Positions 1 through 10,146 of a stretch of 56,285 nt of DNA are shown piece by piece; positions within the stretch are counted from its first letter, which is position 1, and the number at the start of each line of letters is the position of its first letter. The notes under the pieces were generated by a model, which saw only the letters and a program-made list of their open reading frames with translations, ran no database searches and was not told the DNA's origin. The stretch is from Desulfovibrio sp. Its GTDB lineage: Bacteria; Desulfobacterota; Desulfovibrionia; Desulfovibrionales; Desulfovibrionaceae. Position numbers and translations under genes: made by a program. The DNA lies in assembly GCA_031272405.1 (NCBI GenBank), contig JAISTW010000017.1, positions 1 through 56,285 on the forward strand, in the 5' to 3' direction.

Positions 1-126
1 TCGTGGCAGTTCCCGATGCATATGCCTTTACAACAAGAGTCCGTATTTCAGGAGATGCGGTTTTCATGCGGCTGAGTATAGATTTTTTCTATATAAAATG
101 AAAGTTAAATTGCTCTAGCGCCGCTT

Positions 127-639
127 GTGTTCTATACATCCGGCAAGCCGGAAGCCGAGCGTTTCAAGGCAACAAAGGCCGTTTCGTCCATTACTCATGC
201 CCACACATGGTCTGTGGCGGCGTGTTTCCTGTATCTTGAATACTTGCGCAATCTGCTCGGCGGCATGGAGAAGAAGGCCGCATATGCCGCATTACGAAAC
301 GATTTTCAGGCGGGTTGCCCTTACATTGACGCGACGGCGCTTGAAAAATTCGCCCGGATTTTGCACGAGGATATAACCGCTTTGCCGGAACAGGCGATCA
401 AGAGCGGCGGCTTTGTTGTGCATACCCTGGAAGCCGCCCTGTGGTGCTTTCTGACCACGGAAAATTACCGGGACGCCGTTTTGAAAGCCGTCAACCTTGG
501 TGAAGATACCGACACAACGGCGGCAGTGACCGGCGCTCTTGCCGGGCTTGCCTACGGCCTTGCCGGCATTCCCGCGCCGTGGCTCAAAACGCTGGCCGGC
601 TACAATGGCATTTTGAGCATTGCCACAGCAATGACCTAA
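127..639 (+). pseudogene. ADP-ribosylglycohydrolase (DraG-like), 5'-truncated
   Basis: The 170 residues match the C-terminal half of ADP-ribosylglycohydrolases, which remove ADP-ribose from proteins or small molecules. The SSITHAHTWSVAAC segment and the late metal-binding motif GEDTDTTAAVTGALAG, followed by GLAGIPAPWL, are characteristic. Family members are usually 250-350 residues and have an N-terminal GxxxGDALG-type metal motif, which is absent. In frame, a stop codon lies at 106-108 and only a GTG at 127 is available, so the first 100 or more residues are gone. I read this as a gene remnant at the edge of the mobile region, probably inactive because both ends of the protein supply metal ligands. 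Family assignment is confident; pseudogene status is inferred. Confidence 0.7.
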
Positions 640-1290: not shown

Positions 1291-1668
1291 CTACAGGAAG
1301 AGCTTGTACGATACGTTGAAGGCCTGGCCGATGCGCTTGGCCATGTCAATGGTAATGCTCCGCTTGCCGTTTTCCATTTCCGATACATGGTGTTGCGTAA
1401 TGCCGACGCGCTCGGCAAATTCAGCCTGCGTCATGTCGTTCTTGCCGCGAAAACCGCGCAAAACCATCGCCGGACACATTTCAGGGAAGACTTCCTCTAC
1501 ACTGAGGAAAGGTTCACCTTCTTCATCCAGCCACTGCACTTCCTGGCCGCCGAAGGCGAGCAGATGCCGTATCGCTTCCGCAGTTCGGGCGGCAACTTCA
1601 GCGGGAAGCTCCAAATTTATTACGGCTCGGTTATTGTCGAGAGTATGGAGCGTCATTTCAGCATGCAT
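1291..1668 (-). CDS. HigA/XRE-type antitoxin
   Basis: This is a 125-residue protein. Its N-terminal half is HicB-like or unassigned (LELPAEVAARTAEAIRHLL). Its C-terminal half is a Cro/C1-type helix-turn-helix (MTQAEFAERVGITQHHVSEM, then NGKRSITIDMAKRIGQAF). Such antitoxins neutralise an adjacent RelE/HigB nuclease and repress their own operon. The start at 1668 is chosen because GGAGG lies six bases upstream; an upstream in-frame extension to 1758 is really the shifted end of the toxin gene. It follows the toxin by about 13 bases, the usual toxin-first HigBA order. The frame is intact although the partner toxin is broken. Confidence 0.75.
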   Translation of the reverse strand: MHAEMTLHTLDNNRAVINLELPAEVAARTAEAIRHLLAFGGQEVQWLDEEGEPFLSVEEVFPEMCPAMVLRGFRGKNDMTQAEFAERVGITQHHVSEMENGKRSITIDMAKRIGQAFNVSYKLFL

Positions 1669-1681
1669 GTCATTCCTCCAT

Positions 1682-1992
1682 TCACTTAAATCTGTCGTAA
1701 TCAACATTTTCGTGGGTTCCGGCATACCGGATTTCCATGATGCACAACCGACGATCAATCACCTGCCAAACAGCCACGGATGCCCTCCATGCAAGTGACA
1801 GTGGTGATATTCGCCCTTCTCCCCTTTCAATTTGTCGTAGTTAAGCCATTCGCGCTGCACCGGGCCTTCCAGAATGAGTTCCTTCACCAAGGTTGCCAGA
1901 CGATCGCGGATGCTTTGAGGCAGCTTTTCTTTTTGCTTCCCTGCTTTCCCGCTGAACCCCACAGCCCAGAGAGTGTCTTGCGTCTGGGTCAT
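1682..1992 (-). pseudogene. RelE/HigB-type toxin, frameshifted
   Basis: The first part (from ATG 1992) has the family features SIRDRLATLVKEL, LKGEKGEYHHCHL and GGHPWLFG but stops at 1759. The expected C-terminus is present in another frame directly after (QVIDRRLCIMEIRYAGTHEN, ending with TGA at 1682-1684). A single-base change around 1770-1785 would fuse them into about 103 residues, the normal length of this mRNA-interferase family. The toxin is therefore inactivated by a one-base frameshift, unless this is a sequencing error or a recoding site. Loss of toxin with retained antitoxin is a tolerated state. Confidence 0.7.
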
Positions 1993-1998
1993 GGAGAA

Positions 1999-2026
1999 AA
2001 CATACCAGTATTGCGTATAATGTCAA
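1999..2026 (-). promoter_or_regulatory. Promoter of the toxin-antitoxin operon
   Basis: On the minus strand a perfect TTGACA (2026-2021) is followed after 16 bases by TATGTT (2004-1999). The toxin ATG begins only six bases past the -10 element, so the transcript would be almost leaderless. No ribosome-binding site precedes that ATG, which agrees with this reading. Confidence 0.5.
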
Positions 2027-2110: not shown

Positions 2111-2218
2111 AAGGTGAAAAGGAGGACGTATGGCAGGGATGGCAATAGCGTCATCGATCATGCAGGGAGTTTCAGCCGGTATGGCGCTGCTCGGCGGCAT
2201 TGCCCAAAGCAACGAGGA
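2111..2218 (+). repeat. Direct repeat, copy 2 (108 bp)
   Basis: This is the second copy of the 1140-1247 repeat, offset by 971 bases, with 107 of 108 positions equal. Here the reading frame continues into the intact 186-codon virion gene, so this copy is probably the original context. Confidence 0.95.
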
Positions 2219-2690
2219 ACGGGCCTTCGGCGAGGCGCAGGAAGCCGCATACAAGCAGCAGGGTGCGGCGGCGCTGGCGGTGGCCAAAAATCAGGCCGCG
2301 CAGGAAAAGGACAAGTACCGGCGGCTGGCGGCAAGCCAGCGGGCGAATCTGGGCGCGTCCGGCATTGACGTGAACCAGGGCAGCGCCCTGGACGTGCTGG
2401 CCGACACTGACGCCGAAGGCGCTGTTTCCGCCATGCAGCTCCTGTACTCCGGCGAGCTGGAGAACTGGAACGCGCGGCAGCGGGCGGCCATGATCAGGGC
2501 GCAATCTGAAAGCCGGGCCAATTCCGCGCTGCTGGGCGGCATCATGTCCGGCCTGACCGGCATGGCCGAAACGGCAAGCAAGTTCTCCTCAACGCAGCCG
2601 TCGGCAGGCAACGTCACCAGTTCCGGGGCCAACAACTACACGCCCTATCTGACGCAGTACGGGCGCGGCAACAACAGCCCGGTGCGGTAA
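2130..2690 (+). CDS. Phage internal virion protein, T7 gp14-like
   Basis: This is a 186-residue protein. A Gly/Ala-rich hydrophobic N-terminus (IMQGVSAGMALLGGIAQS) is followed by a long Ala/Gln/Lys-rich helical region, then the conserved-looking ANLGASGIDVNQGSALDVLA segment and a second helix ending in a low-complexity Ser/Asn/Thr tail. This pattern is known from podovirus gp14-type proteins (T7 gp14 is 196 residues), which leave the virion at infection and form the outer-membrane part of the DNA-ejection channel. The start has AAGGAGG five bases upstream. It is first in the cassette, and its start region is duplicated at 1140-1247. Family assignment rests on pattern and gene order, not on a search. 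Confidence 0.6.
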   Translation: MAGMAIASSIMQGVSAGMALLGGIAQSNEERAFGEAQEAAYKQQGAAALAVAKNQAAQEKDKYRRLAASQRANLGASGIDVNQGSALDVLADTDAEGAVSAMQLLYSGELENWNARQRAAMIRAQSESRANSALLGGIMSGLTGMAETASKFSSTQPSAGNVTSSGANNYTPYLTQYGRGNNSPVR

Positions 2691-2691
2691 C

Positions 2692-4668
2692 ATGGTGCGC
2701 ATACCAGATCGCCCGTATGCCTGGTTGGCGACCAATCTGCCGGACGCGCGGAACGCCGGGGCTTCGGCCGTCGGCAGCGGGGAAGCCTTCAACATCATTG
2801 CCAGGGGCATGGACAGGCTTGCCGCCATAGCCGGCCACATACAGGAGCAACGCGATCACGATCTGCTGGTGGAAGCGCAGAACCGCTATACCAGAGCGAT
2901 GACTGAGTTTTCCCTGGGCGCAGAACAGACGCGCACGGGCGCGCACGCACGGGGCTTCACCAAAGACTACGCCGGCACGGCGGACACGACGCAGGCCGAT
3001 GTGCTGGGCTGGTTGAAGGACAACGGCGGCTCCGGCAACACAGAAAGGGCTTTCGGGAATTGGGCCGCGGGCCGCAAGACCGCGGGTGGGGCGGACGCCG
3101 CGCGCTTTGAGCACGGGCAGCTGCTGGCGCACAGCAAAGACCTGTTCACCCAGCGTTTGCAGGGCATAACCGATCAGCTTGAGCAGAACCCGCGCGCCTA
3201 CGGGGACGCGGTGGGGCAGCTTGAAGAAGCCTTTACGCTGGGCGTGGGGCAAGGGCTTTTCCGGGCGGAGGAAGCCAAGGCGCGGCTGCACGACGCGCGG
3301 GAAAAACTGGGCCTGACGGCTTTTGACAATCTGTACGCCATGAACCGGGGCGAAGCCATAAACAGCATGGCCGCTTTCGGCATGTCGCCGGCGCAGCAGG
3401 CCAAGGCGAGGAAACGCTTTCAGGCGGATAGCCGGGCCGATGCGGCGCAGGCCAGGGCGGCTAACGCGGAAAAAAAGGCGGAACTTGCCTCTGCCCTGCC
3501 GGACATTCTGGAAGTGGCCCAGCTCACAGGCGACACGAGCGAGGCGGCAAAGGCGGCGGAGGCCTTGCGCAAGCTGGGCGACGTCAAGACTGCGGAACGC
3601 ATAGACCGGAAAATCAACGTCTTCCAGAACAATTTCGCCGCCATCAAAGAAAGTCAGGCCGCGTCCATGCCCGAATTGCAAGAGAGCATAGCCAGGCTGG
3701 ACAAGGATATATTGGGCTTACAGGCCGAGGGGGCGGCTGCCGATGCCCGGCGGCTGGAAAAGCTGAACGCGGAAATGGACATTCGACGCAAGATTTACGC
3801 GGCCCGCGCCAACCAGATCGCGGCCGATCCCATGCAGGCGGCCATGATCGGCGAGCAGCCGGAACAAATCACCCCGGAAGGAGTAAGCCGGCTTATGGCG
3901 AAACAGCGGGCCATCGGCAAGGGCGTACCAGGCTTTACCCCGCAGCCGATGACAAAGGCGCAGGCCGATACCCTGAACAGGCAGTGGTTCGCGGAGCCGG
4001 ACGCGGGCAAGCAGGCCGCGCTGCTACAGGAGTTACGGCAGAGCTACGGGAAGCATCTCCCGCAGGCGCTGGCGCAGGCCAAGCTGCCGCCGGCGCTGGT
4101 CGCCGTCGCGCCCATAGCCGGAGACATGACGCCGCGACAGACGGCGACCATGATTGCCGCCGCCACAGCCAAAGACGCCGATTTGCCGAAATCGGACGAG
4201 CAGGTGAAATCGTCTCTCGAAAACAGCGAATTTTTACAGGCGGCGCGGGATATATCCGGCCTTATGTACCGGTCATCCGAGGCCAGGGACTTTGCGGCAC
4301 AAACGGCCAAAGCCTGGGGAAACTATGCCCGTCTGGGCGGGGACATCGTCGAACTTGAAAAGAATTTCCTGATCATCAACGACGGCAACCTGAAGGTGCT
4401 CGCGCCCAAGAGCATGGACGCCCCCGGCCTTGAAGCCGGCCTGAACGCCGCCACGCGGATTCTTCAGGCAGGCGTGAAGAAAGGTGACCTCTCCGCTCAG
4501 ATGCGCACGGTGTACGCCAATGGCTGCTGGCTGTACGACGGCGCGGGCGGCTTCGCCTTTGTGGACGCCGCCACCGGGCTAGCCGTAACCAGGAAGAGCC
4601 TGGCCGAGATCCTGGACGCCGGCAAAGACGACGACTCCAGCGCCCTCTATTTTGGAACGGGGGAATAA
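2692..4668 (+). CDS. Phage internal virion protein, T7 gp15-like
   Basis: This is a 658-residue, mostly helical, soluble protein with long Ala/Glu/Lys/Gln coiled-coil-like stretches (about residues 230-380) and no signal peptide or membrane segment. Position and size match the gp15-type ejection protein (747 residues in T7), which forms the periplasmic tube of the ejectosome. A segment around residues 135-225 (ARFEHGQLLAHSKDLFTQRL to KLGLTAFDNLYAMN) resembles internal virion proteins of podoviruses. The start lies two bases after the previous stop and has no clear ribosome-binding site, suggesting translational coupling. The stop overlaps the next start (TAATG). Confidence 0.5.
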   Translation: MVRIPDRPYAWLATNLPDARNAGASAVGSGEAFNIIARGMDRLAAIAGHIQEQRDHDLLVEAQNRYTRAMTEFSLGAEQTRTGAHARGFTKDYAGTADTTQADVLGWLKDNGGSGNTERAFGNWAAGRKTAGGADAARFEHGQLLAHSKDLFTQRLQGITDQLEQNPRAYGDAVGQLEEAFTLGVGQGLFRAEEAKARLHDAREKLGLTAFDNLYAMNRGEAINSMAAFGMSPAQQAKARKRFQADSRADAAQARAANAEKKAELASALPDILEVAQLTGDTSEAAKAAEALRKLGDVKTAERIDRKINVFQNNFAAIKESQAASMPELQESIARLDKDILGLQAEGAAADARRLEKLNAEMDIRRKIYAARANQIAADPMQAAMIGEQPEQITPEGVSRLMAKQRAIGKGVPGFTPQPMTKAQADTLNRQWFAEPDAGKQAALLQELRQSYGKHLPQALAQAKLPPALVAVAPIAGDMTPRQTATMIAAATAKDADLPKSDEQVKSSLENSEFLQAARDISGLMYRSSEARDFAAQTAKAWGNYARLGGDIVELEKNFLIINDGNLKVLAPKSMDAPGLEAGLNAATRILQAGVKKGDLSAQMRTVYANGCWLYDGAGGFAFVDAATGLAVTRKSLAEILDAGKDDDSSALYFGTGE

Positions 4669-7600
4669 TGCTTATTCCCGGCCTGTTCGACAAATACTCG
4701 GCCACCCCGGAAGAAGCGGCCAAAGCTAACGTTCCGACCGTCGGCTGGGGTGGGTACATGGGCGCGTCCGCTTCCGAGGCTTTTACCCGCACCAGCACGG
4801 ACGCGCTGCTCACTGAAAGCCGCGTCCTGGCGGCGGAAGAGAAAGCCTATGGGCAAAACGCCCCTGGCTTTCAGGAACGGATGGAAACCGGCGAGGCCGG
4901 CTTTTCCGACTTTTTCACACGACCGACGGGCAAGGCCCCTGTCTATATCTCCAAAGAAGACTGGAACGAGAGCAATCCGTTTTTCCGCAAGGGCGTGGAA
5001 TGGCGCGAGGGAATGACGGAAGAACGGGCGCGGATTTACGCCGAGGGCTTTGACGAAAGCGAAGACCGCAAAAAGCTGCTGGGCGTGGGACAGGAACAGT
5101 ACGGCTTTGCGCGCGGAACCCTGCCGGGCTTCTTTGCGGGCATGCTGGGCAGCCTGCCCGATCCTGTAAACCTGATCCCCTTCGGCGGCGGGCTTGCCAG
5201 GGGAAAGGGCTTTCTTGCCGGAGCTCGTGCCGGGGCGCTGGAGGGCGCGGCGGTAAATGTGGTTGTTGACGCCCTGGTTATGAAGGACTTGCAGAGCCGG
5301 GGCGAGGAACTCGGCTTTGCCGACGTGGCTTTGGACCTGGCTTTCGGCGCGGCGCTGGGCGGATTTCTTGGCGGCGCGGGCGGATGGCTTTCGGCGCGGC
5401 GCGCAAACAGGACGGATCATTTTGCTGACGCCAGCAAAGCCGCTTTTGACGCTGTGCCGGACGGATTTTTTGATGTCTTCCAGGATTCCTCGGCAAACTG
5501 GACGACGCCTTGGGAAAGAACTGCGGCCGCTGCCGATGAGGCGCGGCCCGCCTTGCGACACCTGAATGTCGAGACAATGGATGACGTTTACGCTCTGGCT
5601 GAACAAACGCAGGAACGCTTTTACTCTGACGTTGAATCATGGGCGAATGAAACAGGCGGCGAGGCTCTTTTCCGTACGGACGGAGAAAGCGGCCTGCGTT
5701 CCCTCAAAAACAGGAAACGCGCTGAAAGGGAACTGCCTGAATACAACGGCGATCCCGCAAGAGTTGTAGACATCCTCGGCGGGACAATTATTTACGATAC
5801 CAGAGCGCAAGTAGAAGCGGCGGCGAGTCGAATCAAGGAGCGCGTTGAAGCCGCCGGCGGCGTCGTAAACAGGGATAAAAACCGTTTTGAGAAAACAGCT
5901 GGAGACGGGTACAGGGATTATCAGCTTAATTACCGCTACCCGAACGGCTTTACTGTCGAACTGCTGCTGAATACGCGGGCCATGACCGAAGCCAAGAACG
6001 GCGTTGGGCATGCCATCTATGAAGCAGTGGATGCTATAGACAGAATTGCGAATGATCCGAACGCGACTCCGGAAGATATACTGGACGCCAATCGTATTTC
6101 AAAATGGCTGGAAGGCGCAAGCAAGGCTTTTTACGATTCGACGGGAGAACAGAGCAACGCGACGGCCTCGTCTTCTGATATAACGGAGCTGTCCCGCCGT
6201 ATAGAGGCGTACATTAGCCTGCTGGCAGGCTCTAAAGTGTACCGCGAAGCAGCGCCGTTGCTGGAACGCATACGGAAAATTCTGCCGTCCTCAGAATCAA
6301 CATACGGCATCCCTTCCCAGTCGAGAAAGTTATCAACGAATATAGGCTCGTTAGGCCCTGACGCTTCCCATGAAGCGCCACCAGTCCCAGCGTCGCGCCC
6401 ATCCATGAACCGGGCAATAAATGGCTTGGAAAACATGGAGGAACCTCCTTCAGACAGGTCAAAGATAAAGCCTGATTCCGGGGAAGTCAATACGTCGGGC
6501 AGACTTTCGGGTGAAAAAGTTGAAATTTATACGAGCGAGGGAGAAGACGCCGCGTACTACGAAGTGCGGGAACTTGAGGAAGTCATACCCTCGCACGATC
6601 CGAACAACGGCTTTGCCAGACGTGAGGATTATCCGGCCATTGCCCAGGAGCGGCCCTACCATTCCGTCACGGGCGAGCAGGACAAGGTGCGCCGAAACGC
6701 CCGCGAGTTCCGGCCGATGTATCTTCTGACCAACAATCCCGACGCCAGCAACGGGCCGCCCGTCATCACGAGCGACGGCGTTGTTCTGGGGGGCAATTCC
6801 CGGACAATGACGCTCGGCCTTGTCTATGACGCCGTTCCGCAAAAGGCGGCGGAATACAAGGAAAGGCTGATACGCGAGGCAGGAAAGCTGGGGATAGACG
6901 GCGCTGCCGTTGCGGGCATGGAGCGGCCGATACTGGTGCGCGTGCTGGAACACAGCCTGACGCCTGAAGAAATGGCCGTCAAGTCCCGGCTGTACAACCA
7001 AAGCCAGACGCAGGCTTTGCAGGCCATAGCGGAAGGCGTGAGCAAGGCGCGGCTTATCAGCCCTGAAACGCTGGCGGTTTTTACCAAAGGCATGGAAGAT
7101 TTCGACAGCCTGCGGGAATATCTCGGTTCGACAAGTTCCCGTAAGCTTGTAGCCGCCCTGGAAAAAGACGGCGTACTTGAACAGACGCAGCTTGACCGGA
7201 TTATTGAGACAAGCGGCAAGCTGAACGAGGAAGGCAAGACGCTTGTTGAAAACGCTCTGCGCGGCATTGTGGTGTCCGACTACGACACGCTGGCGTCCGC
7301 CCCGGCATCGGCGCTGAAAAAACTGGACAAGGCCGTGCCCGCGCTTACACGTCTGAAAGCACGGGGGGAAGGCTGGGACTTGTCCGGCACGGTAACGGCC
7401 GCCCTGCGGCAACTCAACCAGGCCCAAAGCCGGGGCATGCCCATTGATTCGTGGTTCGGACAGCTTGACCTTGTTCAGGTTGATCCGGCCAAGCACAATC
7501 CGGCCGTGCAGGCTTTGGCGCTTCTGCTGGACAAGGGCACCCAGAAGGAAAATCAGGCTCGCTTTGAGCTGTTCGCCAGACTGGTGGAAAGGGAAAACAA

Positions 7601-8426
7601 GGGGCAAGGGACGATGGTATCCCGCAAGGACGGCAGCCCTGCCCAGGCGTTCACAAAGGCGTTTCTGAAACCCCTTGCCGTTGTGGACGGCGAGATTATC
7701 TCCGGCTTCGACCCCAAGGGTAACGCGCTTCACGCGGCCCTGCAATACGCGCATGACAAGGGCGGGAGTGGGCATTCGGTAAACACCGCCCTTGAAAAAC
7801 TTCCCAAGACCAAGGCGGGCAAGGAAATGGCGCGGCTGCTGGCGAAGTATTCCGGAGCCGTAAACATCTATGAACCCAAGCTCGGCAACTACTTTGACGT
7901 ATCCGGCATAGCTGCGCTTGATGCGTCTGTGGCCATCCGCCCTGAAGGCGCGTTTGACGCCGCCCGCATGAACGTTCACGGCGACGCGCGGCAGGCATTG
8001 CTCAACGGCATGGAACTGGCGGCCGGCGACCTTGCCGCCGGGCGTGACGTGGATGTGAGCCAGGTTGCCGGATTGCCGGAGGCCATTGCCAAAGCGCGTA
8101 ACAGTGTTTCACCTGGTGAAAATCACGCTGCGCCTGACTTTTCCCCGGCCCAGCCGGAAACATTTACCCCGGCTCCCAATCTGAAAACGGCTGACAGTTC
8201 AACCTATACTTACTTGCGCGACCAGGGCATCAACCCGGACACGGGGCTTTCCGTGGAAGAAATCATGGTCAACGAGACGCTGAACCGGGACGCCTCCCTC
8301 CTGCGCCCATCCCTTGCGGAAGAGACGGCGGCCCTAAATGAGGCGCGGGAGGCCGAAGCCTCCCGCCAGAAAATTGAGGAACAGGGCTATTCCATGTTGT
8401 CGTGTGTTTTGGGGGCAAGCGAATGA
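4668..8426 (+). CDS. Large ejection protein with RelA/SpoT-like and ParB/DdrB-like domains
   Basis: This 1252-residue protein is third in the cassette and close to T7 gp16 (1318 residues). Approximate layout: unassigned N-terminus (1-145); Gly/Ala-rich hydrophobic region around GTLPGFFAGMLGSLPDPVNL (150-245), common in large virion proteins; a RelA/SpoT-synthetase-like stretch (330-460) with SLKNRKRAER, DILGGTIIYDT, DGYRDYQLNYRYPNG, VELLLNTRAM and GVGHAIYE in the expected order; a ParB/DdrB-like domain (640-970) with VITSDGVVLGGNSRTMTLGL, LVRVLE and YNQSQTQALQAIAEG; and an unassigned C-terminus. Classical RSH enzymes use the Asp of DxxGxR and the Glu of ExQxRT; an Asp and a Glu are present at comparable places, but the Arg and Gln are not conserved. 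Proteins of this build enter the host with phage DNA and may act as early effectors. Domain calls are by eye. Confidence 0.55.
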   Translation: MLIPGLFDKYSATPEEAAKANVPTVGWGGYMGASASEAFTRTSTDALLTESRVLAAEEKAYGQNAPGFQERMETGEAGFSDFFTRPTGKAPVYISKEDWNESNPFFRKGVEWREGMTEERARIYAEGFDESEDRKKLLGVGQEQYGFARGTLPGFFAGMLGSLPDPVNLIPFGGGLARGKGFLAGARAGALEGAAVNVVVDALVMKDLQSRGEELGFADVALDLAFGAALGGFLGGAGGWLSARRANRTDHFADASKAAFDAVPDGFFDVFQDSSANWTTPWERTAAAADEARPALRHLNVETMDDVYALAEQTQERFYSDVESWANETGGEALFRTDGESGLRSLKNRKRAERELPEYNGDPARVVDILGGTIIYDTRAQVEAAASRIKERVEAAGGVVNRDKNRFEKTAGDGYRDYQLNYRYPNGFTVELLLNTRAMTEAKNGVGHAIYEAVDAIDRIANDPNATPEDILDANRISKWLEGASKAFYDSTGEQSNATASSSDITELSRRIEAYISLLAGSKVYREAAPLLERIRKILPSSESTYGIPSQSRKLSTNIGSLGPDASHEAPPVPASRPSMNRAINGLENMEEPPSDRSKIKPDSGEVNTSGRLSGEKVEIYTSEGEDAAYYEVRELEEVIPSHDPNNGFARREDYPAIAQERPYHSVTGEQDKVRRNAREFRPMYLLTNNPDASNGPPVITSDGVVLGGNSRTMTLGLVYDAVPQKAAEYKERLIREAGKLGIDGAAVAGMERPILVRVLEHSLTPEEMAVKSRLYNQSQTQALQAIAEGVSKARLISPETLAVFTKGMEDFDSLREYLGSTSSRKLVAALEKDGVLEQTQLDRIIETSGKLNEEGKTLVENALRGIVVSDYDTLASAPASALKKLDKAVPALTRLKARGEGWDLSGTVTAALRQLNQAQSRGMPIDSWFGQLDLVQVDPAKHNPAVQALALLLDKGTQKENQARFELFARLVERENKGQGTMVSRKDGSPAQAFTKAFLKPLAVVDGEIISGFDPKGNALHAALQYAHDKGGSGHSVNTALEKLPKTKAGKEMARLLAKYSGAVNIYEPKLGNYFDVSGIAALDASVAIRPEGAFDAARMNVHGDARQALLNGMELAAGDLAAGRDVDVSQVAGLPEAIAKARNSVSPGENHAAPDFSPAQPETFTPAPNLKTADSSTYTYLRDQGINPDTGLSVEEIMVNETLNRDASLLRPSLAEETAALNEAREAEASRQKIEEQGYSMLSCVLGASE

Positions 8427-8500
8427 CGGTGCTGCTTGAGATCGTGGGCTGTCTGGCCCTGCTGGCGTACTTCTATTTCCTGATCCAGGGGGGCGACTGA
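8423..8500 (+). CDS. 25-residue single-span membrane peptide
   Basis: This is a very short ORF encoding an N-terminal TVLLEIVG, a hydrophobic stretch through CLALLAYFYFLI and a polar QGGD tail, enough for one membrane helix. Its ATG overlaps the previous stop (ATGA at 8423-8426) and its stop overlaps the next ATG (TGATG at 8498-8502), so it is coupled on both sides and fills the whole gap between two long genes. That arrangement is hard to explain unless it is translated. Possible roles are a small accessory of the ejection channel or a lysis-related peptide; the sequence does not decide. Confidence 0.6.
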   Translation: MTVLLEIVGCLALLAYFYFLIQGGD

Positions 8501-10146
8501 TGGCCACCAGGGCTGACTGCATAGCGGCCGCGATGAAGGGCGGTCTTTCCAAGGAGGAAGCGCGGCTGGCCGTTGATGCCATGTTCGAGGACAAAGCGCG
8601 GGTACGCATGGCCAAGGCCGAGGGGGCCGTGGTCAATGAGGAAAAGGCGATGGCGCAAGCCTGGGCTGTGCGCATGGATGAAGCCCGTGCCGCCGCGGCC
8701 GTGGCCCGCAAGCAGGCGGCGGTGAACATCCTTCGCCGTCAGGCTCTGGAAGAACGGATATCGGTGATCAAGGCGGAAGGCTTTACGGGCATGGACGCCA
8801 TCGAGGCCCTGCTTGTGGGCAGCAACCGGCGTTTCACGGGTGCGCGAAACAGCATTGACGCGGCTCGCATGGCCCTGAAGAAAGACTTTCTGGGCGGTCT
8901 GTTCAATGACCTTGAAGCCACAAACACCCCTATACAAAACCTATTCAGGGACGAGGGCTTTTCCGCCGATGTCGTGCGGGAAATCATTTCACCCGGCGGC
9001 ACAAACAACGCCGAGGCCCGGCGTGTGGCCGAGGTCATGTCGCGGCACATGGAGAAGGCCCGGCTGCGGATGAACGAGGCCGGGGCCAGCATAGGGAAAC
9101 TGGACGGCTACATTCCCCAAAGCCACGACGCCTGGAAGCTGACGGCCGGCCAGCGCGACGGCAGGAGCGCGCGGCAGGGCTGGATCGAGGGGATACGGGA
9201 CAGGCTCGACCCCGCGAAGACCTTCGGCATGGACGCGGCAGAGGCGGCCACGCCGGAAGGCGCGGCGGAAGTGACCCGCATCCTGTCGGCCATATACGAC
9301 AACATCACCCTGGGCCGTGACATTGGCCCGACGGCTGTGGAACGCGGGGAAAGGACAGGCGCGCCGAATCTTGCCAACAAACTTGCCCGGCATCGTGTGC
9401 TGCATTTCAAGGACGCGGACGCCTTCCTGGCCTACCATGCCGAGTACGGCAGAGGCGGCGCGCTGACAGGCGTGCTGACGCATCTGGACACGGCGGCCCG
9501 ATCCACGGCGCTACTGGAAACCCTGGGCACGAACCCTGAAACGATGCTCAAGTCCATCATAGCCGGCGAGACGCGGGAACTGCGGGAAGCCACGGCCGGC
9601 GGGGACATAGGGCGGCGGGAAATGCAGGCCTTGAAAAGACTTCAGGAGGCGCAAGACCTGAAGGGCAACAGCCAGGTCGCCGCGTGGTGGAAAGAGCTGA
9701 CCGGCGAGGCCAACTGGCCGACGAACCTGGGCATTGCGCGCTACACGGCGATGGCCCGAGCCGTCCAGAGCATGAGCAAGCTGGGCTTCGCGACGATTTC
9801 GGCCATAGCGGATCTTCCCAACAAGGCCATGAACATGCGCGTGCATGGCTCAAGCTGGCCGCGTGCGCTGCTGGAGGGGTTCAGCCAGTATTTCGAGAGC
9901 TACACGGGCGACAAGCGGCGGCTGGCCCTCGATCTCGGGGCCTTTGTGGACGATGTCGGCAATGATCTGCGCCTGCGCTGGGATATGTCCGAGACCATGC
10001 CCGGCCGACTGGCCGGCCTTCAGGACAGATTTTTCAGACGTAGTTTCTACGGCAAAACCCTGTCCGTCAAGGCATGGCGGATATTTTTTATCCGGAGGGC
10101 ATACGTCGGCCTTATCGGATATCTGCGAGAATTGTTGCATGGTTGA
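8500..10146 (+). CDS. Large phage virion protein, C-terminally truncated
   Basis: This is a 548-residue protein of the kind found as 700-2000-residue internal virion proteins in podoviruses and prophages. Recognisable stretches are LDGYIPQSHDAWKL, IYDNITLGRDIG, ARHRVLHFKDADAFLAYHAE, LLETLGTNPETML and SMSKLGFATISAIADLPNKA. The first 120 residues are Ala/Glu/Arg-rich and helical. The family pattern ends at about LAGLQDRFF (near base 10,030), and the last 37 residues are basic and unlike it, as expected if a deletion joined the gene to unrelated DNA. The start overlaps the stop of the 25-residue ORF. It is probably the broken end of the cassette. Confidence 0.6.
   Translation: MATRADCIAAAMKGGLSKEEARLAVDAMFEDKARVRMAKAEGAVVNEEKAMAQAWAVRMDEARAAAAVARKQAAVNILRRQALEERISVIKAEGFTGMDAIEALLVGSNRRFTGARNSIDAARMALKKDFLGGLFNDLEATNTPIQNLFRDEGFSADVVREIISPGGTNNAEARRVAEVMSRHMEKARLRMNEAGASIGKLDGYIPQSHDAWKLTAGQRDGRSARQGWIEGIRDRLDPAKTFGMDAAEAATPEGAAEVTRILSAIYDNITLGRDIGPTAVERGERTGAPNLANKLARHRVLHFKDADAFLAYHAEYGRGGALTGVLTHLDTAARSTALLETLGTNPETMLKSIIAGETRELREATAGGDIGRREMQALKRLQEAQDLKGNSQVAAWWKELTGEANWPTNLGIARYTAMARAVQSMSKLGFATISAIADLPNKAMNMRVHGSSWPRALLEGFSQYFESYTGDKRRLALDLGAFVDDVGNDLRLRWDMSETMPGRLAGLQDRFFRRSFYGKTLSVKAWRIFFIRRAYVGLIGYLRELLHG

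Follow-up and report, generated by a model that had tools for sequence, protein, structure and literature searches.

The stretch analyzed here, which we call the window, is the whole of contig JAISTW010000017.1 (contig C63; 56,285 nucleotides) from an 81%-complete, 2.2-Mb genome of Desulfovibrio sp. Its subject is P0001, a phage-type protein of 1252 amino acids (aa) that contains, at aa 304-505, a genuine domain of the RelA/SpoT (RSH) synthetase superfamily, identified by homology and fold. Our preferred reading, to which we give a probability of about 0.55, is that P0001 is a T7-gp16-like ejection protein of a podovirus-type prophage remnant, and that its polyvalent module carries a diverged RSH synthetase that would be injected and act in the host. 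The protein and its parts are the following.

4668..8426, plus strand: P0001, 1252-aa gp16-like internal virion (ejection) protein with an inserted polyvalent module (phrog_342)
5502..7898, plus strand: swappable cargo module, aa 279-1077 (49-50% identity to a stretch in a 3066-aa frame of genome G010)
5577..6182, plus strand: RSH-synthetase-like domain, aa 304-505 (profile to PDB Tas1, AlphaFold, Foldseek, VIA-align)
6552..6947, plus strand: DdrB-like ParB superfamily domain, aa 629-760 (Pfam PF18763, E 3.2e-17)
4668..5411, plus strand: N-terminal gp16-like core, aa 1-248 (60% identity to aa 8-260 of the relative L016)
7950..8423, plus strand: C-terminal gp16-like core, aa 1095-1252 (similarity to relatives L016, L017, and L018)

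The AlphaFold model of aa 304-505 has a predicted local distance difference test score (pLDDT) of 92.1, and all 50 PDB rows listed by Foldseek for this model are RSH synthetases; the match to an unrelated fold considered in the preliminary description of this DNA was not seen. The A2 profile, built from seven domains (the window, two same-genus copies, Bordetella phage PHB04, two Photobacterium proteins, and an Enterococcus plasmid protein), finds in PDB Tas1 (8e-13), the exported synthetase SaSAS (1.4e-11), and YwaC (1.6e-8). Tas1 is the closest solved sequence, at 2.5e-17 with the A5 profile. A profile restricted to the four remote rows (one Bordetella phage, two Photobacterium, and one Enterococcus plasmid row) recovers P0001 over aa 304-494 with E 3e-27; shuffling P0001 1000 times gave no sequence reported at E<=10. 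Thus, the resemblance is more than chance, and the RSH-like segment claimed in the preliminary description is confirmed. Over 61 genomes, the window's own included, the A2 profile matched 40 genomes in 44 rows, that is, five phage or cargo copies and 39 single Rel-length frames of 496-1031 aa, one per genome. Such a frame is also present in the window's own genome, and an HD_4 alarmone-hydrolase domain lies within the same frame in three of the four genomes searched.

Direct searches with the window domain gave a different picture. Pfam RelA_SpoT does not match it alone, a single-sequence search of PDB sequences with residues 325-481 found no match up to E 10, P0001 is missed by the reverse search, made with a profile from eight Rel proteins of the same genus, and hhalign of the A5 or A6 alignment against the same-genus Rel alignment gave no result. 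Therefore, the link of the window domain to RSH proteins runs via its relatives and the fold. Among the relatives, PHB04 matches RelA_SpoT at 4e-7, above the curated cut-off, and sub-threshold values were obtained for L003 (0.002), the two Photobacterium proteins (0.00095 and 0.00046), and the Enterococcus protein of L022 (0.075); L014 has no match. The four loci confirmed by the genome-contig scan for close copies are all from Desulfovibrio sp. metagenome-assembled genomes, and scans of viral contigs with the window piece or three close copies confirmed no relatives.

The five peptides cited in the preliminary description are present in order at aa 345-452 (window positions 5700-6023): SLKNRKRAER (aa 345-354), DILGGTIIYDT (aa 368-378), DGYRDYQLNYRYPNG (aa 413-427), VELLLNTRAM (aa 430-439), and GVGHAIYE (aa 445-452). 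Compared with the canonical synthetase motifs named there, the window has DILGGT for DxxGxR, DGYRDYQ for NGYxSxH, and ELLLNT for ExQxRT. The motif-like elements are the following.

5697..5732, plus strand: syn1-like RSLKNRKRAERE, aa 344-355, with Lys347 and Arg351 conserved in the clade
5769..5786, plus strand: syn2-like DILGGT, aa 368-373, with catalytic-type Asp368 and Gly371 replacing Arg
5877..5888, plus strand: KNRF, aa 404-407 (motif table)
5907..5924, plus strand: syn3-like GYRDYQ, aa 414-419 (motif table, tree rows)
5955..5972, plus strand: syn4-like VELLLN, aa 430-435, with catalytic-type Glu431 and Leu433 replacing Gln
6009..6023, plus strand: HAIYE, aa 448-452, a conserved HxxYE (motif table)

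Inspection of the predicted active site, which had been proposed as a check, divides these residues into two sets. The Mg-binding Asp and the catalytic Glu are kept as Asp368 and Glu431, together with Lys404, Tyr415, His448, and Tyr451. Two ATP-contact positions, the Arg of DxxR/DxxGxR and the Gln of ExQ, are replaced, by Gly371 in DILGGT and Leu433 in ELLLN, respectively. In the motif table, housekeeping Rel proteins are characterized by DIMAFR, GY[QR]SLH, and E[IV]QIR, and Apk2-like rows by DxxRYT, YxGxN, and mostly ExQ[FY]H. The clade formed by the window, PHB04-type phages, and Vibrionaceae proteins has D-x-x-[RG]-[AG]-[TS] and typically GYRD; the exceptions are GYKD in L003, L015, and L076, and the rows P0013, P0015, and P0021 differ too. 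The window motifs GGT, DYQ, and LN are thus not those of Apk2, which has RYT at syn2, GxN at syn3, and YH at syn4.

The phylogenetic tree comprises 52 rows with a Rel root and group labels assigned by motifs. The window joins P0002 (support 96/96), then two same-genus copies (99/97), then copies from PHB04-type phages and Vibrionaceae (99/100); the resulting clade of 17 rows is apart from the Apk2-like rows, which themselves do not form one clade. The family of the Vibrionaceae proteins has 101 members found, mostly from Photobacterium and Vibrio, with some from Shewanella, Ferrimonas, and others. The six proteins examined are 256-262 aa long, have a signal-peptide-like start, and all contain GYRD; their Asp falls at positions 126-130, Glu at 185-189, and Lys, located in five of the six, at 104-108. 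The essential residues of RelV are K107, D129, R132, and E188. Because length, start, and motif positions fit, the Vibrionaceae rows are probably RelV-type. The product of VpEAS is described as (p)ppGpp only, the same as an earlier result for RelV; VpEAS without its signal peptide kills E. coli, and RelV also inhibits growth (PMC12691689). Since the window domain groups with these putative RelV-type enzymes, (p)ppGpp would be the likelier product if the domain is active. Two plasmid loci of relatives deserve mention. One (L020:6717-8564) is a tandem pair of RelV-type genes on a Photobacterium plasmid of 2.1 Mb; public records call many relatives phosphoribosylglycinamide formyltransferase, which is apparently a misannotation. 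The other (L022:5683-7158), on an Enterococcus faecalis plasmid, has an Apk2-like/XopAD-like RSH gene followed by an HD_4-like gene below the Pfam cut-off.

The carrier is of the phage ejection type, as had been suggested. The profile phrog_342, "internal virion protein with endolysin domain," matches P0001 at E 8.7e-12, a match that spans profile positions 309-429 of 1235 only. A relative of P0001 without the RSH and DdrB module is located in a T7-like prophage of genome G026, together with terminase, a head-tail adaptor, a major head protein, tail proteins, an 878-aa phrog_684 protein, and a fibre-type protein. The core itself is conserved at both ends: aa 1-267 show 50% identity to L017, aa 1095-1147 show 68% identity to aa 262-314 of L016, and further C-terminal core matches occur in L017 and L018. 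Three genes adjoin P0001.

2130..2690, plus strand: gp14-like internal virion protein (phrog_418, E 5.7e-20)
2692..4668, plus strand: 658-aa protein in the gp15 position, placed by gene order alone, with no significant family match
8500..10146, plus strand: truncated virion structural protein (phrog_684, E 1.5e-68), 73 bases after P0001

Core similarity and the gp14-gp15-gp16 order, the middle gene being assigned by order only, identify P0001, as far as sequence can, as an internal virion protein that is T7-gp16-like and encoded after a gp14-like gene. No lytic transglycosylase domain was found in P0001 by Pfam, the phrog_342 match being partial; an NCBIfam scan gave no match, nor did Pfam report MuF up to E 10. 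The 658-aa protein shows no similarity to the transglycosylase protein of L076. Identity of P0001 as a tape-measure protein was considered and dropped, PF06791 matching at E 0.083 only.

Between the two parts of the core lies a module of about 800 aa, with the RSH-like domain, DdrB-ParB, and a helical tail. L016 lacks the module: there, the equivalents of core aa 248 and of core aa 1095 lie one residue apart. In L003, the stretch corresponding to aa 279-1077 is found inside the 3066-aa frame, which matches DdrB-ParB and LPD3 and, below threshold, ART-PolyVal. Absence from the L016 core and presence within the larger L003 protein show that the RSH and DdrB domains move as a unit, that is, as swappable cargo. 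In L076, the module belongs to a 1324-aa protein, and the protein encoded immediately before it has an endolysin-type domain (phrog_669, phrog_342). The combination of an RSH-like domain and PF18763 in one large protein with virion-gene neighbors agrees with the definition of polyvalent proteins. The model of aa 600-1100 has pLDDT 79.7, and its structure search gave no match better than E 1.4.

Nine other same-genus proteins with the gp16-like core were scanned, eight having the N-terminal core and L047 the C-terminal core only, some of them cut by contig ends. By Pfam, their inserts contain DdrB-ParB and MuF_C in L044, MuF_C and LPD3 in L045, and LPD3 in L046; the other six have no Pfam match in the insert, hhalign gave no MuF_C or LPD3 assignment for other gp16 cargos, and the RSH profile in the 61-genome search reported none at these nine places. 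Across L016, L017, L018, and L044-L049, the inserts thus differ (MuF_C, LPD3, DdrB-ParB, or unnamed), and HExxH-like strings are seen by eye in several. We tentatively propose, at somewhat less than even odds, that T7-type ejection proteins of these podovirus prophages, with their conserved gp16-like core, are a platform for exchangeable effectors, and that the RSH cargo, an enzyme of the RelV-containing clade, would flood the entered cell with (p)ppGpp via a remodelled ATP site and so shape host physiology ahead of phage transcription.

Partner genes are seen in the PHB04-type sister group, represented by 22 viral loci, among which L059/L060 and L063/L064 are nearly identical pairs. Seventeen of the loci have a portal homologue, 16 have a conserved 69-aa open reading frame (ORF) past the RSH gene, and 11 have an HD hydrolase that lies 279-319 bases past the RSH match; of the 11 loci without it, one has just 22 bases downstream and others up to 10 kb. 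The PHB04 hydrolase belongs to Pfam HD_4 (3.3e-21). This links part of the clade to alarmone chemistry. At L013:5368-9378, L053, L055, L056, and L058-L065, the RSH-like gene, the 69-aa ORF, and the HD hydrolase gene are consecutive in the portal region; the product of the 69-aa ORF could be an inhibitor. Such a gene was found neither in the window nor at the cargo loci of the genus that were tested. This absence might be expected if the enzyme were made only late in lysis and acted in the next cell.

The prophage in the window is a truncated remnant of about 8 kb, in which the P0001 frame stays open. Similarity of the phrog_684 gene ends at approximately aa 516 of 548 (about position 10047), corresponding to profile position 494 of 840; the frames of its relatives are 879 aa in G026 and 875 aa in G019, and the other frames are 143-1197 aa long, with short contigs or pieces at the low end. 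The next gene encodes a GIY-YIG protein with relatives in 21 of the 24 other same-genus genomes searched. The GIY-YIG region borders the remnant; a second copy of it, with a stop, is at G000:C47:30828-31239. At the left of the phage genes, a helix-turn-helix (HTH) gene lies on the opposite strand. There (window 1294-2022, minus strand), an HTH_3 protein adjoins a small RelE/HigB-looking protein at the left edge of the remnant, a possible toxin-antitoxin pair; the Pfam match is for the HTH alone, and the remainder was judged by eye. Near the contig start (window 109-636, plus strand) lies the C-terminal half of an ADP-ribosylglycohydrolase (PF03747, 4.7e-34).

In the preferred reading, we infer that the virion core would contain P0001 along with the proteins from the gp14 and gp15 positions, and that P0001 would accompany the first DNA into the cell. 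Once in the cytoplasm, its RSH domain would use ATP as the pyrophosphate donor for a 3'-OH, most likely that of GTP or GDP; a stringent-type shift ahead of any phage gene expression would follow, presumably to the benefit of the phage. Several observations weigh against this. The Arg at Asp+3, which binds ATP in SaEAS (R124) and Apk1 (R330) (PMC12691689), is replaced by Gly in all five close copies with this stretch (the window, L003, L014, L015, and L076). The Gln of ExQ is replaced by Leu in five of seven, being retained in P0002 and L002, the nearest sisters of the window, and the ATP-site Asn listed in PMC12691689 is lost across the clade, RelV-type rows included, save P0014 and P0028. Hence, the ATP site is remodelled or weakened. 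In addition, the window has Glu355 (position 52) where most relatives have Lys, and the window yielded no gene for an HD alarmone hydrolase. The copy at G010:C112 is interrupted by a stop, and the frame of G001:C170 (L002) starts within the RSH domain, a partial copy. Because the prophage is truncated, delivery from the window locus at present is unlikely. A search of four genomes for a head-tail adaptor homologue succeeded in three, but not in the 81%-complete genome of the window; a major-head-protein query gave no match in any of four genomes and, for want of a positive, carries no information.

These replacements, the broken or partial copies, and the missing partner hydrolase would also fit a clade that retains the RSH fold with synthesis lost, the domain binding nucleotide or tRNA or merely filling space. 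We consider this unlikely, yet worth serious attention. Against it, Asp368, Glu431, Lys404, and Tyr415 are retained, and the DIMAFR motif of housekeeping Rel likewise does without Arg at Asp+3, having Ala there. Substitution rates indicate constraint on the RSH domain: the ratio of nonsynonymous to synonymous rates (dN/dS) is 0.17 for the window and L002 (89 codons, dS 1.6), 0.20 for L003 and L076 (200 codons, dS 1.0), and 0.19-0.26 for other computable RSH pairs (dS about 2), figures that are rough since dS is 1.0 or more, which lessens their weight for a working enzyme. An active domain could instead make (p)ppApp, as Tas1 and Apk2 do, or pyrophosphorylate tRNA 3' ends like toxSAS, poisoning the cell or competitors. 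Here the tree is of limited help, being built without Tas1, SAS1/2, and tRNA-modifying toxSAS; as Tas1 is also the closest solved sequence, (p)ppApp retains some probability as the product. We nevertheless regard this alternative as improbable: the acceptor-side GYRD and ELLLN differ from the RYT, GxN, and YH reported for Apk2 (PMC12226406), the clade stands apart from Apk2-like rows, and the window yielded no hydrolase gene of the (p)ppApp type. Finally, the failure of Pfam, PDB sequences, and the same-genus Rel profile to recognize the window domain directly, the last also counting against the preferred reading, could suggest an unrelated fold or a generic nucleotidyltransferase; given the four-row profile and the shuffles, such a chance resemblance is hardly credible.

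The preliminary description held that P0001, if its RSH-like segment were real, would be a new kind of take-over or anti-defence device. This cannot stand, as RelA/SpoT domains in polyvalent proteins and MuF-borne (p)ppApp synthetases are already known. The former were predicted in phages, with DdrB-ParB in Helicobacter prophages, and host shutdown was proposed (Iyer et al., 2017; PMC5512222). P0001 resembles them in having an RSH-type domain and DdrB-ParB in a large late-gene protein for which that paper proposed injection and host shutdown. The cases described there come from spirochaete and epsilonproteobacterial prophages (in Helicobacter with PBECR and LPD3), whereas here the host is of Desulfovibrio type and the insertion is into a T7-gp16-like core; "gp16" occurs 0 times in the main text of PMC5512222. 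For the MuF-borne Apk2 enzymes, (p)ppApp synthesis is proven (PMC12226406), and virion delivery of MuF toxins, RelA-like ones included, has been proposed (PMC5576092). P0001 and Apk2 both have a phage head protein as carrier of the RSH synthetase domain, with proposed virion delivery, but the text on Apk2 describes a MuF carrier, a C-terminal toxin, RYT/GxN/YH motifs, and the immunity genes iapK and aph1 (PMC12226406).

Other known systems share single features with P0001. VpEAS and RelV probably belong to the same clade, with a GYRD-type syn3; as described in PMC12691689, they stand alone, carry a signal peptide, and keep DLAR and EVQ, whereas the present domain is internal to a 1252-aa virion protein and has DILG and ELL. 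Tas1/Apk1 (6ox6), the closest solved relative, aligns without gaps in the G-loop, but is delivered by the type VI secretion system and has YSGVN at syn3. T7 gp16-type proteins (phrog_342) share the gene position and a core segment; P0001 differs in its polyvalent insert and in that no lytic transglycosylase domain was found. The open-licence literature covered here yielded no RSH domain on a gp16-like carrier. Thus, this analysis adds (i) a gp16-like ejection carrier with swappable cargo, (ii) the Desulfovibrio setting, and (iii) a RelV-containing clade with an altered ATP site in this branch. If delivery and activity are true, host nucleotide signalling would be changed at DNA entry, before transcription, and the 2017 polyvalent-protein prediction would become directly testable in a T7-type system. 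Gp16-like ejection proteins are seen to carry exchangeable domains, and the clade connects phage virion-region genes with the secreted alarmone synthetases of Vibrionaceae.
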